Position numbers and translations under genes: made by a program. Source: Exiguobacterium aurantiacum (GTDB lineage: Bacteria > Bacillota > Bacilli > Exiguobacteriales > Exiguobacteriaceae). From it: a DNA stretch of 64,000 nucleotides. Below are positions 35,568-42,610 of this stretch, one piece after another. The stretch spans positions 772,501-836,500 of the forward strand of contig NZ_CP101462.1 in the NCBI RefSeq assembly GCF_024362205.1, given 5' to 3'. The notes below the pieces were generated by a model. The model saw only the letters and a program-made list of their open reading frames with translations, was not told the DNA's origin and did no database searches. The first letter of the stretch is position 1, and each line of letters starts with the position of its first letter.

Positions 35568-35598
35568 ACCGAACGAGATGTCTCGTTCGGTTTTTTTG
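35568..35598 (+). terminator. Terminator after the 163-aa gene
   Basis: ACCGAACGAGA / TCTCGTTCGGT stem, loop TG, seven T. Confidence 0.93.
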
Positions 35599-35660
35599 TT
35601 TTGTCTCCTCACTTGAAAAAGACTGCTATATTATGAGGAGAACAGTCAGGAGGGAACACC

Positions 35661-36341
35661 ATGCACATTTTAATCGTTGAAGACGACCGGACGATCGCCT
35701 CCGGTCTCCAATATTCGCTCGAACAAGAACAATTCACGACGACGTTGTGCCAGAACGTGGCCGATGCGACAAAGATAATTGAACAACAGTTACATACGAT
35801 CGACCTGTGTCTGTTCGATTTGTCGTTGCCGGACGGGAGCGGTTATGACTTATGTCGGCTTGTGAAACAACAAAAGGATACGCCCGTCATCTTTTTGACG
35901 GCGTTCGATGACGAAGTGAACGTCGTCATGGGACTCGATATGGGAGCGGACGACTACATCACGAAACCGTTCCGGGTCCGTGAACTCATCTCACGGATCC
36001 ATTCGGTGTTGCGCCGCTACAATAAGCAGACCAGTTCGCCTATTCTGAAAATCGGGTCGGTCGAAATCAACACGCAAGACGCGAAAGTGAAAAAGGACGG
36101 AAACGAAATCTTCTTGACGGCGCTTGAATATCGCCTATTGCTCATCTTCGGGAAACATACGGGCCAAGTGTTGTCACGGGCCCAGCTGCTCGACCAGATT
36201 TGGGACATGGGCGGGGACTTCGTGAATGACAATACGTTGACCGTCTATATCAAACGGTTACGTGAGAAGCTCGAGGACGACCCGCAACGGCCGACGTTGA
36301 TTAAGACGGTTCGCGGGATTGGCTATAAGGTGGAACGCTGA
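35661..36341 (+). CDS. OmpR-family response regulator
   Basis: 226 residues. Receiver domain with acidic pocket D8/D9, phosphorylation site D53, T80 and K102; winged-helix DNA-binding domain from about 125 to 225, ending KTVRGIGYKVER. It forms an operon with the histidine kinase (stop TGA at 36339, kinase ATG at 36343). It probably activates the downstream ABC transporter through the phased GTCAC repeats at 37348-37385. Confidence 0.94.
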   Translation: MHILIVEDDRTIASGLQYSLEQEQFTTTLCQNVADATKIIEQQLHTIDLCLFDLSLPDGSGYDLCRLVKQQKDTPVIFLTAFDDEVNVVMGLDMGADDYITKPFRVRELISRIHSVLRRYNKQTSSPILKIGSVEINTQDAKVKKDGNEIFLTALEYRLLLIFGKHTGQVLSRAQLLDQIWDMGGDFVNDNTLTVYIKRLREKLEDDPQRPTLIKTVRGIGYKVER

Positions 36342-36342
36342 C

Positions 36343-37347
36343 ATGTTGCGCAATCGAGAGATCCGCATCTATTTGGTCAGCCTCTTGTTGCTGATTGGGG
36401 TGGCCTCTACGGTCGCAGTCGTGTTCATCTCCCTGGAGGCGCTCGTCCTCGTCGTCATCCTATCGATCACGCTCTTGCTCGTGACATATCGGTTCACGGC
36501 GTGGCGCTATCGGGAGATCGACCAACTGTCGAGCTACCTCCAAGAGATTAGCAACGGCAACTACAAACTAGACGTCCGCGACAATCGCGAGGGCGAACTC
36601 AGCCTGTTGAAGAGTCAAATCTATAAAGTGACGAAGATGCTGTCCGAGCAAGGGACGCATCTCGAAGAAGACAAGCAGAAGTTGACGGATGCCATCTCCG
36701 ACATCTCTCACCAACTGAAGACCCCGCTCACATCGATGACGGTTATGGCGGACTTGCTCAGTGACCCGCGGCTGTCGGATGACAAGCGGCAAGAGTTCAC
36801 GCATAACGTGCAGGTTCAGCTCGAGCGGATGGAATGGCTCGTCTCGTCACTCCTCAAGCTGTCTAAAATCGATGCCGGGACGATTCATTTCAAGCAGGAA
36901 CCGGTATCTGTCCCCGCGCTCATTCAAGCCGTGACAGAACCGATGCTTGTGCCGATCGATATTAAAATGCAACGGCTCCAGATTACGGGTGAGCGTGACG
37001 TCACGTTCGAAGGCGATATGAAGTGGACGACCGAGGCGCTCATCAACATCTTGAAGAATTGCGTCGAGCATACACCGGAACAAGGGGAGCTGTTCATCGA
37101 TTTCAGCGAGAACACACTATATACGGAAATCGTCATTCGCGACACGGGGAGCGGCATCGCCAAACAAGACGTCCCGTACATTTTCCAACGTTTTTATAAA
37201 GGCACGAATGCGAGCGACGACAGCGTCGGCATCGGGCTCGCCATGGCCCACAGCATCATCACGAGCCAGCAAGGTGAATTGACCGTCCGCAGTGAACGTG
37301 GAGCCGGGACCGCTTTTCAAGTTCGATTTTATAAAGCCATCGTCTAA
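36343..37347 (+). CDS. Sensor histidine kinase with short extracellular loop
   Basis: 334 residues. Two closely spaced membrane helices (about 10-30 and 32-50) with almost no loop mark an intramembrane-sensing kinase of the BceS type. These usually sense through a partner ABC transporter. A HAMP-like stretch precedes the H-box ISDISHQLKTPLTSM with H123; the ATPase domain has a conserved N box (NILKNCVEHTP), DTGSGI and the GIGLAMAHSII G2 box. Start 36343 overlaps no gene and is 1 base after the regulator stop. Confidence 0.92.
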   Translation: MLRNREIRIYLVSLLLLIGVASTVAVVFISLEALVLVVILSITLLLVTYRFTAWRYREIDQLSSYLQEISNGNYKLDVRDNREGELSLLKSQIYKVTKMLSEQGTHLEEDKQKLTDAISDISHQLKTPLTSMTVMADLLSDPRLSDDKRQEFTHNVQVQLERMEWLVSSLLKLSKIDAGTIHFKQEPVSVPALIQAVTEPMLVPIDIKMQRLQITGERDVTFEGDMKWTTEALINILKNCVEHTPEQGELFIDFSENTLYTEIVIRDTGSGIAKQDVPYIFQRFYKGTNASDDSVGIGLAMAHSIITSQQGELTVRSERGAGTAFQVRFYKAIV

Positions 37348-37385
37348 GTGACGAAACAGTCACTTTCGAGTCACGGACGTGTCAC
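37348..37385 (+). promoter_or_regulatory. Four 11-bp-phased pentamers: response-regulator box
   Basis: GTGAC at 37348 and GTCAC at 37359, 37370 and 37381, each exactly 11 bases apart, one DNA turn, as in PhoB/OmpR-type direct-repeat operators. A TACACT at 37396-37401 could be the -10 element, 10 bases beyond the last repeat, fitting activator-type promoters with no -35. Confidence 0.7.
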
Positions 37386-37432
37386 ACTCGCTCGGTACAC
37401 TCAAAGTAGATCAAGTACTGGAGGGTGCAAAC

Positions 37433-38116
37433 ATGAACATATTAGAAGTACAACATTTATCGAAAGTATACGGGAAAGACGAGATGGAAGTGCGGGCGCT
37501 CGATGACGTGTCGTTCACGGTCAAAAAAGGCGAGTTCGTCTGTATCGTCGGACCGTCGGGCTCGGGGAAGTCGACGTTGTTACACTTGCTCGGCGGTGTC
37601 GATGTCCCGACGAGTGGACACGTGTTGATCGACAACACGGATATTTATAAATTGGACGAGACGCAGCTCGCCATCTTCCGTCGTCGTCAAATCGGTTTGA
37701 TTTATCAGTTTTACAACTTGATCCCGATTTTGACGGTCGAGGAGAACATCACGCTCCCGATGCTGTTAGACGAGCAAAAAGTCGACGTCGCCCATTTAGA
37801 GCGTATCATCGGCATCCTCGGACTATTAAACCGGTTGACGCATTTGCCGAACCAACTGTCTGGCGGACAGCAGCAACGGGTCTCCATCGGCCGGGCGCTC
37901 ATCAGCAATCCGGCCATCATCTTGGCCGATGAGCCGACAGGGAACTTGGACAGTCAAAACAGTGAAGAGATTATGAGTCTGTTGAAACTGTTCAACAAGA
38001 AGTTCAATCAGACGCTCATCATCATCACGCATGACGAACGGATCGCCTTGCAGGCCGACCGGATCATCTCGATCGAAGATGGGAAGATTGCGAAGAATGA
38101 GGTCGTCCGCGCATGA
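37433..38116 (+). CDS. ABC transporter ATP-binding protein
   Basis: 227 residues. Walker A GPSGSGKST at 40-48, signature LSGGQQQRVSIGRAL, Walker B IILADEPTGNLD, H-loop ITHDE. Of the MacB/BceA/LolD class. I place the start at 37433 behind ggagggtg; an upstream in-frame ATG at 37379 would run through the operator. Its end overlaps the permease start by ATGA, so the two are translated together. Confidence 0.93.
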   Translation: MNILEVQHLSKVYGKDEMEVRALDDVSFTVKKGEFVCIVGPSGSGKSTLLHLLGGVDVPTSGHVLIDNTDIYKLDETQLAIFRRRQIGLIYQFYNLIPILTVEENITLPMLLDEQKVDVAHLERIIGILGLLNRLTHLPNQLSGGQQQRVSIGRALISNPAIILADEPTGNLDSQNSEEIMSLLKLFNKKFNQTLIIITHDERIALQADRIISIEDGKIAKNEVVRA

Positions 38117-40683
38117 ACATCATCAATAAAATGACGCTTCGGCACTTACGCGAGAACAAGCGGCGCTCGCTCGTCACCATCATCGGTGTCATCATCTCGG
38201 TGGCGATGATCACAGCTGTGACGACACTCGGTTCGTCGTTCTTGGACTTGATGATTCGTCAAGACATCGTGAACAACGGGGAATGGCACGTCCAATACAT
38301 CAACACGAATGAGGAGCAGGTCGAGGCGATTCGAAATGATGCATCGACGAAGGACGTCATCCTATCGAGTGACGGCTATGCGGAACTAAAAGAGTCGCAG
38401 AATGCCTATAAACCGTACTTATACGTCCGGAACTATAACACCTCGGGGCTCAAAAATTTTCCCGTCGACTTGACGGAGGGACGCTTGCCGAACAAAGAAG
38501 GCGAGGTCGTCATTTCCGAGGCCATCCGTCAAAACGCGCAAGTCACGTACAACATCGGGGACAAATTGACGCTCGAGATCGGCGAGCGTATGGACGAATC
38601 GTCGGGTCGCGTGTTGACGCAAAACGATGGCTTGATCCGTGACGGGGAGACAATCCTGGAACAGTTGAACGTCGAGGACACGGTGACGTTGACCGTCGTC
38701 GGCACGATGACGCGCCCGGCCTGGGAGCCGACGTGGTCGCCGGGCTACACGGTCGTCGGATACATTGACGATAAAGCGTTGAACGGTGCGACCGTCGATA
38801 CGTTCGTCGCCTTAAACGACGTTAACGGCTCAATTTATGAGGATACGAAACGAGTGATGAACGAACAGAAAATTGAAGGGGTCGCCTATAACTCATCGTT
38901 GCTTCGCTATTACGGAGTGACAGACGACGGCGGATTGCGTAAGACGTTGTATGGTTTCGTCGGGATCATCATGACGGTTATCGTCATCGGTTCGATTTCG
39001 CTCATCTATAACGCGTTCGCCATCAGCGTATCTGAACGCTCGCGTTATCTCGGGATGCTCGCGAGTGTCGGGGCGACGAAACGGCAAAAACGGAACTCGG
39101 TCTTCTTTGAAGGACTGATCATCGGAGGGATTAGCATCCCGATCGGCATCCTTGCCGGGGTGGCCGGGATCGGGGTCACGTTCCTGTTCATCAACGCTTT
39201 TGCTGAGAAAGCGCTCAACGTGACGGAGAAGTTTGAAGTCGTCGTCACACCGCTCACGCTCCTGTTGACGGTCCTCATTTCGAGCGTGACGATCTTCATT
39301 TCCTGTTATCTGCCGGCCCGTCGCGCATCAAAGATTTCTGCGATTGACGCGATTCGTCAGACTCAGGACGTTCGATTGACGTCGAAGAACGTGAAGACGT
39401 CAAAACTCGTTCGCCGTATCTTCGGGTTGGAAGCGGAGATTGGGCTGAAAAACACGAAACGTAACCGAAAACGGTATTTGGCGACGGTGTTCTCGCTCGT
39501 CATCAGTATCGTCTTGTTTTTAGTCGTCAGCTACTTCACGGATCGACTCGAGCAGTCACTGGAAATGTCGCAAGGCGCGTACGAGTTCGATATCCTCGTG
39601 AACGGGTCAAATCTCGACAAGGATGACTTACGTCGCTATGAGACGTTGGACAACGTGACGAGCGGGACGTACTTCGAGAACACGACCGTCCAGACGATGG
39701 TCGACGAAACACGGTTACCGAGCGCATTGACCGAGAACGAGGACTTGATGTCCACGTTCGTCGATGGGAAATTTGTGTACTACGTCTCTCTTTATCAATT
39801 GGATGACGACAGCTTCGATGCGTACTTGAAGCAGATTGGGGCATCCGCCAGCAACTTTGAAGATGGGGAGATGCCGAGTGCCGTCTTGATTGATGAAGTC
39901 TCGTATCAAGACGTGGACGAGAAAAAGTTTGTCAACTCGAAGACGATTGAGACAGAAATCGGTGATACGCTCGAACTTCGGGACGAGAATGCGACGGAGA
40001 AGGCGACACCACTTAAAACCATCAAAGTCGGAGCCATGACCGACGTCGCCCCGACCGGTGTGATGACGAGTTCAATTGGATGGCTCGATGTGATCGTTCG
40101 GGAAGGGACGTTTGAAGAGGATGCGATCGGAAAGTTGATGAAGCAATCGAGCCCATCGATTGCCTTGAACACGAGTAACCCGGATGCGACGCAGCAAGTG
40201 ATTGAAGCGGAGCAAAATATGGACCTATACATTTTCAACGTAGCGGAACAACGTGAACAGCAAGAGCAAATCTTGTTGTTATTATCGATTTTCGTCTATG
40301 GATTCATCGTCTTGATCTCGCTCATCTCGGTGGCGAACATCTTCAACACGATCTCGACGAGCGTCTCACTCCGACGCCGCGAATTCGCGATGCTGCGGTC
40401 GGTCGGGATGACACCGAAAGGGTTCAACAAGATGGTGTACTATGAGAGCATCTTCTACGGCATGAAAGCATTGGCGTATGGAGTGCCGATCAGTATTCTC
40501 ATCATGTACCTCATTTACCGGGCACAGATGAACACGTTCGAAGCAGCGTTCACGTTGCCGTGGGGAGATATCTTATTCGTCACGGTCGTAATCTTCTTGA
40601 TTGTTGGTTCTTCGATGCTGTACGCGATTTCGAAAGTAAAGTCGGATAATATCATCGACCGGTTGAAGCAAGAGAATAACTAA
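38113..40683 (+). CDS. ABC transporter permease with two FtsX domains
   Basis: 856 residues. TM1 near 15-37, a large extracellular domain, a three-helix FtsX block (about 278-405) with ISVSERSRYLGMLASVGATKRQ, a further TM near 458-477, a second extracellular domain and a C-terminal FtsX block (about 728-850) with LRRREFAMLRSVGMTPKGF. The duplicated layout is longer than BceB (about 650). Together with the intramembrane kinase it suggests a peptide-antibiotic or envelope-stress detoxification module, but the substrate is not known. Confidence 0.9.
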   Translation: MNIINKMTLRHLRENKRRSLVTIIGVIISVAMITAVTTLGSSFLDLMIRQDIVNNGEWHVQYINTNEEQVEAIRNDASTKDVILSSDGYAELKESQNAYKPYLYVRNYNTSGLKNFPVDLTEGRLPNKEGEVVISEAIRQNAQVTYNIGDKLTLEIGERMDESSGRVLTQNDGLIRDGETILEQLNVEDTVTLTVVGTMTRPAWEPTWSPGYTVVGYIDDKALNGATVDTFVALNDVNGSIYEDTKRVMNEQKIEGVAYNSSLLRYYGVTDDGGLRKTLYGFVGIIMTVIVIGSISLIYNAFAISVSERSRYLGMLASVGATKRQKRNSVFFEGLIIGGISIPIGILAGVAGIGVTFLFINAFAEKALNVTEKFEVVVTPLTLLLTVLISSVTIFISCYLPARRASKISAIDAIRQTQDVRLTSKNVKTSKLVRRIFGLEAEIGLKNTKRNRKRYLATVFSLVISIVLFLVVSYFTDRLEQSLEMSQGAYEFDILVNGSNLDKDDLRRYETLDNVTSGTYFENTTVQTMVDETRLPSALTENEDLMSTFVDGKFVYYVSLYQLDDDSFDAYLKQIGASASNFEDGEMPSAVLIDEVSYQDVDEKKFVNSKTIETEIGDTLELRDENATEKATPLKTIKVGAMTDVAPTGVMTSSIGWLDVIVREGTFEEDAIGKLMKQSSPSIALNTSNPDATQQVIEAEQNMDLYIFNVAEQREQQEQILLLLSIFVYGFIVLISLISVANIFNTISTSVSLRRREFAMLRSVGMTPKGFNKMVYYESIFYGMKALAYGVPISILIMYLIYRAQMNTFEAAFTLPWGDILFVTVVIFLIVGSSMLYAISKVKSDNIIDRLKQENN

Positions 40684-41324: not shown

Positions 41325-41870
41325 TTGGACGATCAAGCGATTATCGATTTGTATTGGCAACGTTCCGAGCGGGCGATTGAGGTGACGGCGCAAAAATACG
41401 GCGGCTATTGTCACACCATTTCCTATAACATTTTGCATAGCCGAGAGGACGCGGACGAGTGCGTCAATGATACGTACATGAAGGCGTGGCAAGCGATTCC
41501 GCCGACACGTCCAGTGCGGCTCGCCGCCTATTTGGCAAAGCTGATCCGTAACGTCTCGCTCCATAAGTATGAGAAGGCGAACGCCAAGAAGCGCGGAGCG
41601 GGACAAGTTCCGCTCATTGTCAGTGAGCTCGAGCACTGTCTCGCCTCCTCCGCCGCGACCGATTCAGAAGTCATCGAGTTGTTGAACGACTTTTTGGCCC
41701 AGTTGCCGCAAGAGACCCGGCAGATCTTTATGGGGCGTTACTTTCACTTTCAATCGATTAAAGACATCGCGAAGATGCGACACGTGAGTGAGAGCAAGGT
41801 CAAGATGGTGCTGCTTCGGACTCGGAACGACTTGCAGCAAGTGCTCGAAGCGGAAGGGGTGGCGCTATGA
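41325..41870 (+). CDS. ECF-like RNA polymerase sigma factor
   Basis: 181 residues. Region 2 spans about 10-80 (ILHSREDADECVNDTYMKAWQAI) and region 4 about 118-170 (LPQETRQIFMGRYFHFQSIKDIAKMRHVSESKVKMVLLRTR). It starts with TTG at 41325 behind gaggggg. Its 3' end overlaps by 4 bases (ATGA) the gene for a single-span membrane protein, the usual arrangement of a sigma factor with its membrane-bound control protein. The signal is unknown. Confidence 0.87.
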   Translation: MDDQAIIDLYWQRSERAIEVTAQKYGGYCHTISYNILHSREDADECVNDTYMKAWQAIPPTRPVRLAAYLAKLIRNVSLHKYEKANAKKRGAGQVPLIVSELEHCLASSAATDSEVIELLNDFLAQLPQETRQIFMGRYFHFQSIKDIAKMRHVSESKVKMVLLRTRNDLQQVLEAEGVAL

Positions 41871-42610
41871 ACAGAGATCGGCTCACACGTTTGATGGGGG
41901 ACGTCGATGACCGGTTCGTCGAGGAATCGATGATGGTTGAAGCCAAAAAGCGGAGACATTGGCATTGGATGGGTGGTCTTGTGGCAGCCGCCGCTGTCAC
42001 ACTCTTCGCCGTGACATGGGACGGTTTTAAAGAATTGATTCCACTGTCGGACAGCTCGAGCAATATGTCGGTCGCTTATATCGATGAAGGGGACATCGAT
42101 GTCGGGATGTCATCGGCAAACCTTGCCGAGATGAGTGAAGACGAGCTGTTCTCGAAATGGGAACCTGCGGTGGTACAGGGCGTCGTGAAACAGATTGACC
42201 ACATCGAGCTCGACTTCAACGGACAAGAGGAATATCAGTCGATTGTGACGATTGGCGTGACAGACGTCTATCGGGGAGACATCGAGCAAGGCAGCACGAT
42301 TCAAGTCCTCACGGTTGCCGGTGTCGGTTCTGAAGTGCTTCAGTCGGATGCGGACGTCATCTCTGAACTTCGCCTTGGGATGGAAGGGATTTTTATGCCG
42401 AGACGGCATGATGCTTCCCACGTCTGGTCACAAAACGGGGCCTCGCTTCAAGTAATGGACGTGAGTGATTACGGTTTTCCGGACGGTGAGCGGTACATGT
42501 TCTTGAACACGGACGAAGGACTCGTCTTCAGTCGAGACGCCTATCCGTCGCTACGTGGCGCTGAAACACTCGATGACGTAGAAGCGTTCATGATGGAACG
42601 GTTCCGTTAA
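41867..42610 (+). CDS. Membrane protein paired with the sigma factor, putative anti-sigma
   Basis: 247 residues. A short cytoplasmic N terminus (1-33, DVDDRFVEESM), one membrane helix at about 34-50, and a long extracytoplasmic domain (51-247) resembling a beta-rich binding module: VVQGVVKQIDHIELDFNG, VTIGVTDVYRGDIEQGSTI. No zinc-binding HxxxCxxC motif is present, so it is not a ZAS-type anti-sigma factor. The control role is inferred from the overlap with the sigma gene and the topology. Confidence 0.65.
   Translation: MNRDRLTRLMGDVDDRFVEESMMVEAKKRRHWHWMGGLVAAAAVTLFAVTWDGFKELIPLSDSSSNMSVAYIDEGDIDVGMSSANLAEMSEDELFSKWEPAVVQGVVKQIDHIELDFNGQEEYQSIVTIGVTDVYRGDIEQGSTIQVLTVAGVGSEVLQSDADVISELRLGMEGIFMPRRHDASHVWSQNGASLQVMDVSDYGFPDGERYMFLNTDEGLVFSRDAYPSLRGAETLDDVEAFMMERFR

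Follow-up and report, generated by a model that had tools for sequence, protein, structure and literature searches.

The locus studied here raises the question of how a transporter is switched on when its genes directly follow those of a two-component system. It lies in a window of 64,000 nucleotides from Exiguobacterium aurantiacum, and all genes of the operon are on the forward strand. The first gene (35661-36341) encodes an OmpR/PhoB-type response regulator (Pfam Response_reg 4.6e-27, Trans_reg_C 5.6e-26), the nearest solved chains of which are RegX3 and MtrA. It is followed by a histidine kinase gene (36343-37347; Pfam HisKA and HATPase_c). Since the only strongly hydrophobic part of the kinase is one N-terminal stretch (a hairpin running continuously over residues 6-54, with almost no extracellular loop by hydropathy), the protein has no outer sensor domain and was assigned to the intramembrane-sensing type, which is defined by this lack in the excerpt of PMC10858260. 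The third gene (37433-38116), preceded by the ribosome-binding site GGAGGG (37420-37425, forward strand, read from the sequence), encodes a LolD/MacB-like ABC transporter ATPase (Pfam ABC_tran 5.5e-35) that scores 229.8 bits against the NCBIfam LolD model, under the cut-off of 307.75. The fourth (38113-40683) encodes a permease of 856 amino acids with two FtsX domains and a MacB-like periplasmic core (Pfam FtsX in two stretches, MacB_PCD). Directly downstream of the transporter operon, at 41325-42610, a gene of the sigma-70 family (ECF-like) precedes one whose product, without Pfam match, is probably its membrane-anchored partner.

Between the kinase stop codon (37345-37347) and the ATPase start codon at 37433 lie four pentamers, as described in the earlier note: GTGAC (box 1, 37348-37352), which reads as GTCAC on the reverse strand, and three GTCAC boxes on the forward strand (box 2, 37359-37363; box 3, 37370-37374; box 4, 37381-37385). 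The step between them is exactly 11 bp, and the forward-strand hexamer TACACT (37396-37401), -10-like and replaced by TATACT or TAAAAT in many relatives, starts 10 bases past box 4; the coordinates of boxes and hexamer were confirmed. When all pentamers were scanned together with their complements for four-fold recurrence at a constant spacing of 10, 11 or 12, the 64 kb gave this place only, and such arrays appeared in none of 20 second-order Markov simulations. GTSAC pairs at period 11 were observed four times, three of them inside the array, versus 0.47 expected (60 simulations). Across all 3.15 Mb of the genome, GTSAC triples at 11 bp are confined to the array, which holds two overlapping ones, and a reversed control pattern gave no match in the same genome.

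The orientation of the boxes was determined by scoring 22 sequences (L010 left out) on a matrix built from boxes 2-4. Box 1 reaches 10.4 bits as reverse complement versus 0.4 bits in direct orientation; the reversed reading wins in 22 of 22 sequences, and by the flanking bases alone in 20. Because box 1 scores so much better reversed, boxes 1 and 2 stand head-to-head with N6 between them, and boxes 3 and 4 are in tandem. The exact 11-bp spacing given in the earlier note stands, but the array is no uniform direct repeat; a direct repeat with an altered centre was rejected for box 1 on the same scores. Likewise, the OmpR/PhoB activator arrangement that the note had recognized applies to boxes 3 and 4 and not to the head-to-head pair, which has Bce-like geometry.

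The earlier note had named conservation of the boxes in orthologous loci as a check. Our genus sample comprised 19 genomes, 11 of which encode the regulator with an identity of roughly 90% or higher; the same 11 carry the permease at 76% identity or above. The 11 operon loci show no variation at the 20 box positions or at the six of TACACT. Variable columns make up 0 of 20 box positions versus 11 of 28 spacer positions (Fisher p = 0.00095), and the array is retained in L008, L012 and L013, where the kinase stop codon lies farther upstream than in the other loci. The exact pattern GTCAC-N6-GTCAC-N6-GTCAC was present in every one of the 11 genomes with the operon and absent from the eight without it; a single match with one mismatch was found elsewhere in operon-less G001, G006 and G014 and in operon genome G011. 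The half-operator GTCAY-N6-GTCAY-N10-TANNNT occurs at eight further places in eight genomes of the genus, besides the 11 operon sites and a VanZ site in G008, and its reversed control matched once. Two pairs of these places look alike (G000:C1:1465664, here L155, with G011:C4:1265898; G013:C2:98440 with G015:C21:314970); they may be further conserved sites, or chance matches in conserved DNA. No convincing gene was recognized downstream of the L155 half-operator in G000, the window genome.

Conservation extends to other families of the class. Among 398 genomes of the class, 49 have a permease match at E <= 1e-60, and the upstream region was read in 44 of these (G132, G289, G321, G346 and G352 left out). 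The layout box 1-11-box 2-(11 or 12)-box 3-11-box 4-10-TANNNT could be fitted in 43 of the 44, with G370 as the exception; in G299 one copy has the distal pair and another lacks it. In the other families it precedes orthologous transporters, the permeases of which are about 30-56% identical. We compared 46 operator rows, 38 of them unique; the VanZ-linked operators of G106, G244 and G307 were read by pattern only. When every step was left free between 9 and 13 and the gap to the -10 between 7 and 13, the best fit was 11,(11|12),11,10, alone or tied, in 37 of the 38 unique sequences. Only L133 deviates (its operator is identical in L135); here the distal pair is absent and boxes 3 and 4 alone are present. 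The step from box 3 to box 4 was 11 bp, alone or tied, in 38 of 38. Scores reached at least 21 in 31 of the 38 sequences, compared with a mean of 15.9 and a maximum of 20 for shuffles. The other seven, which include L133 and all belong to the most divergent set, have scores of 18-19; since these values lie within the shuffle range, the seven operators are placed by homologous position and spacing.

Pattern searches gave the same picture. With at most one mismatch, the 11-bp pattern matched 29 of 398 genomes, 24 of which bear the permease and have the site at the operon, an association with a hypergeometric probability of 2.7e-20 (relatedness ignored). The five without permease are G142, G298, G309, G317 and G388, and simple repeats occur in three of these; the reversed control matched five of 398 genomes (10 matches). 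The pattern also matches contig C22 of G007, a site known from the pattern alone. The pattern with the 12-bp step plus -10 matched 15 of 398 genomes, all 15 permease-bearing (2.7e-15, relatedness again ignored), and its reversed control gave no match in the 398. The Exiguobacterium operators are similar overall, with only six unique sequences among the 11 loci, so that chance arrangement combined with close kinship of the genomes had to be weighed. However, the simulations gave no such array, the layout recurs before the divergent permeases of other families, and copies exist that are unlinked to the operon; the class-wide 11-bp and 12-bp pattern searches make this explanation untenable, and we regard its probability as negligible.

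Could the boxes instead be bound by another regulator, OmpR-type or a repressor, whose gene lies outside the operon? The window genome offers candidates, with 21 regulator-like matches including the regulator of the operon itself. Against this, the exact array is missing from all eight genus genomes without the regulator operon, the genomes matched by pattern in the class hold the operon in 24 of 29 and 15 of 15 cases, and inspection of four of the five other FtsX regions of the window genome (all but C1:897136) revealed no tandem-plus-10 site. We consider an outside regulator unlikely. Control by the regulator of the operon, which the earlier note had thought probable, is in better agreement with an array that is conserved, tied to the genomes with the operon and also present before VanZ genes.

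Steps 1-2 and 3-4 are constant at 11 bp, and step 2-3 is 11 bp in 22 and 12 bp in 16 of the unique sequences (the 22 include the forced fit of L133). Since only this central step varies, two regulator dimers with a hinge between them would account for the spacing. In L129 and L137, from two genomes of one genus, boxes 1, 2 and 4 read CTTAC, GTAAG and GTAAG, and the recognition helix of the regulator is DDNTLSVHIRR versus the usual NDNTLTVYIKR (VYIKR to VHIRR). VYIKR is unchanged despite GTAAG in L124 (box 2) and in L128 and L130 (box 4). In L133 and L135 the helix is VTMKR and boxes 3 and 4 are GTCAC and GTCAT. These sequences give a weak hint that recognition helix and box letters may change together.

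VanZ genes appear to be additional targets. In six genomes a gene of the VanZ family is located between the kinase and ATPase genes (G170, L136; G040, L131; G331, L132; G106, L168; G244, L171; G307, L175), and here the operator is found 5' of VanZ and is absent before the ATPase gene. Correspondingly, L062, L063, L068 and L071 have no boxes at the ATPase start, and the operator is located upstream of VanZ instead. The promoter unit thus follows the target gene, standing 5' of VanZ wherever VanZ is inserted. The operator is also carried by four VanZ genes that are unlinked to the operon: in G392 and G008 on another contig, in G211 about 148 kb off, and in G040, which has two operons, some 128 kb from one. 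In G008, an Exiguobacterium, box 2 is ATCAC and the gap to the -10 is tied among 7, 10 and 13. The stretches inspected around these four genes contain no homologue of regulator, kinase or permease; at L110 another ABC ATPase of 32% identity is present. All eight scored genes that immediately follow an operator (L110, L136, L166, L168, L171, L173, L175 and L177; L131 and L132 left out) match the VanZ family PF04892 with 62.1-79.4 bits, compared with a gathering threshold of 30.1.

VanZ was rejected as a general target within Exiguobacterium, where the array is missing from 26 of 27 VanZ loci and a VanZ site with array occurs in one genome only. Some irregular loci were seen among the relatives. 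The unlinked VanZ in L166 (G392, about 1589-1660) starts with residues that look left over from the N-terminus of the ATPase (MKILKIENLSRLYGKGESSV); a former ATPase gene following the operator might have been displaced by VanZ or have received it by fusion. In L113 (G118) the alignments of ATPase and permease are fragmented, and in L132 the ATPase is fragmented and the permease match stops at residue 665; in both the operator is intact, and broken gene copies or sequencing errors may be the cause. The window genome has a second link of VanZ with two-component genes at G000:C1:1537985-1539093 (L178), where a VanZ-family gene lies immediately 5' of the gene for another OmpR-type regulator, 34% identical to the window regulator; this locus has no box array.

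Since boxes 1 and 2 are complementary, AAGTGAC-N6-GTCACTT could also form a hairpin in an RNA reading through from the kinase gene and act as terminator, attenuator or mRNA-stability element. A 7-bp stem is possible in the window, the full stem can form in 16 of the 38 unique operators, and the inverted repeat reaches 14 bp in L129 and 9 bp in L137. Yet the full stem is impossible in the remaining 22, and the region folds only moderately better than shuffles (z -1.54) and is not followed by a long T-run. Moreover, the stem leaves out the tandem boxes and the 10-bp gap, which are equally conserved, and the array also stands before unlinked VanZ genes. On the missing stems and the folding score the hairpin was rejected, and we rate it as very unlikely. 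In L129 and L137, where the head-to-head pair 5' of the ATPase gene is lengthened, the inverted repeat may double as a hairpin.

None of the 22 promoters checked (L010 again left out) has a -35 element, the best agreement with TTGACA at a distance of 16-18 bp being three of six positions, and the start of transcription is predicted near 37408. Boxes 3 and 4 overlap the -35 region, as would be expected if the array were a repressor operator at which the regulator blocks an otherwise active promoter. However, a promoter without -35 hexamer should be weak alone, and the pho-box-like placement of the boxes is that of activators, as described in the excerpt of PMC4971064. Repression is thus improbable, and activation would explain the arrangement better.

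The genes for regulator and kinase seem to be transcribed differently. An intrinsic-terminator-like hairpin with T-run (35569-35597, forward strand), read from the sequence and recognizable in the majority of the 11 aligned loci, parts the regulator gene from the gene upstream. It is followed by a box-free, extended -10-like element, TGCTATATT (35624-35632, forward strand), which is present in 10 of the 11 aligned loci and reads TGATATATT in L007. Regulator and kinase probably have a separate promoter there. A search for the four-box array before the regulator gene in 38 loci gave scores of 9-12, compared with a mean of 9.9 and a maximum of 12 for shuffles; autoregulation via the array was therefore rejected. 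In one genome, G090, a head-to-head pair ATGAC-N6-GTCAC upstream of the regulator gene (L122) hints at autoregulation. According to the earlier note, a transcript starting only upstream of the regulator gene would speak against a transporter promoter at the boxes. We judge this unlikely because the -10-like hexamer is constant 10 bp past box 4, and because the whole unit stands before inserted and unlinked VanZ genes; some read-through from the regulator promoter may occur.

It is highly probable, judging from these comparisons, that the response regulator of the operon uses the array as a PhoB-type class II activator site and thereby drives the MacB-like FtsX transporter. The 54 bp would then constitute an activator-dependent promoter of the transporter genes. 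The intramembrane-sensing kinase would phosphorylate the response regulator, which would bind as two dimers, one at boxes 1 and 2 (head-to-head) and one at boxes 3 and 4 (tandem). With its end 10 bp from the -10, the tandem pair would substitute for the absent -35 element and recruit RNA polymerase in the manner of PhoB at the pho box; the distal palindrome would probably contribute greater occupancy and specificity. A stimulus would raise mainly the transporter, plus the VanZ protein in relatives that have one. Since regulator and kinase appear to have their own box-free promoter, it would be mainly the transporter that is induced, with some regulator present beforehand. A review ascribes to VanZ a role in teicoplanin resistance (excerpt of PMC8541618). 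On the combined evidence of kinase type, transporter and VanZ, we infer that the transporter and the VanZ genes elsewhere probably serve a cell-envelope antibiotic response, the likely role being defence against peptide or glycopeptide antibiotics that act at the cell wall.

We further lean, with slight preference, towards the view that this composite operator (a head-to-head and a tandem dimer, a hinge of 11 or 12 bp between them and a constant 10-bp distance to the -10) marks a previously undescribed regulon of Bacilli that joins the MacB-like FtsX transporter and VanZ, membrane proteins of two unrelated types, in one antibiotic-response pathway. Among the open-licence papers listed for the operator, the regulon or the module, a scope that leaves out most subscription journals, none describes the operator in its title or the opening of its abstract. 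The recognition rule is concrete and spans species, and it predicts targets: the pattern alone found VanZ genes far from the operon. Shared control of VanZ and an FtsX/MacB-like transporter suggests a joint response to cell-wall antibiotics, and the mixed layout offers a natural case for OmpR-type dimers using both geometries at one promoter.

Several known systems share features with this one. As in the PhoB/pho box system, an OmpR-type regulator with a Trans_reg_C domain is encoded nearby, and tandem 11-bp repeats (boxes 3 and 4) lie in the place of the -35 with a gap of 10 bp to the -10. The repeat of the pho box is CTGTCAT/C, which the core GTCAY of the array resembles. Pho boxes of E. coli usually replace the -35 and consist of two 7-bp repeats, each followed by 4 A/T-rich bp, within 22 bp (excerpt of PMC4971064). 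In contrast to the PhoB system, an additional head-to-head pair is present upstream here, the regulator scores 199 bits, under the curated PhoB cut-off of 296.2, and the targets are a transporter and VanZ rather than phosphate genes.

In BceRSAB and PsdRSAB, as here, a regulator and an intramembrane-sensing kinase adjoin an ABC transporter, and for psdRSAB the operator is reported between the two-component and the transporter genes (excerpt of PMC10858260). The same excerpt gives AnnTTACnAnnnnGTnAG as the consensus of Bce-like regulators. Boxes 1 and 2 share its spacing, and L129 and L137 match it in full; the window sequence AAGTGACGAAACAGTCAC has equal spacing and differs at two specified bases (TGAC/TTAC and GTCAC/GTnAG). 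Boxes 3 and 4, however, are not part of the consensus in that excerpt. BceB-type permeases have 10 helices with a domain of 200-250 amino acids between helices 7 and 8 (excerpts of PMC12484072 and PMC3023708), whereas the window permease has about eight transmembrane stretches and two large extracellular domains, as judged by hydropathy only, and BceB is absent from the three chains that it matches in the PDB at E <= 0.001 (MacB, YtrF and an unnamed ABC permease). The operon is thus not a strict Bce module and appears Bce-like in its kinase type and in the position of the operator.

With MacB and the duplicated FtsX permeases of the ADOP type, the permease shares the FtsX and MacB_PCD domains, and ADOP is its best curated model. 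All five of its NCBIfam matches remain below their cut-offs, though (ADOP 46.2 versus 622.3 bits, MacB 38.9 versus 966), and in contrast to MacB/ADOP the permease here is tied to a two-component system. As with VanRS/VanZ, a two-component system stands next to a gene of the VanZ family in six relatives, but the regulator scores 179.6 bits against the VanR-ABDEGLN model, the cut-off of which is 350. The two halves of the operator may join a Bce-type palindrome and a PhoB-type tandem in a single site.
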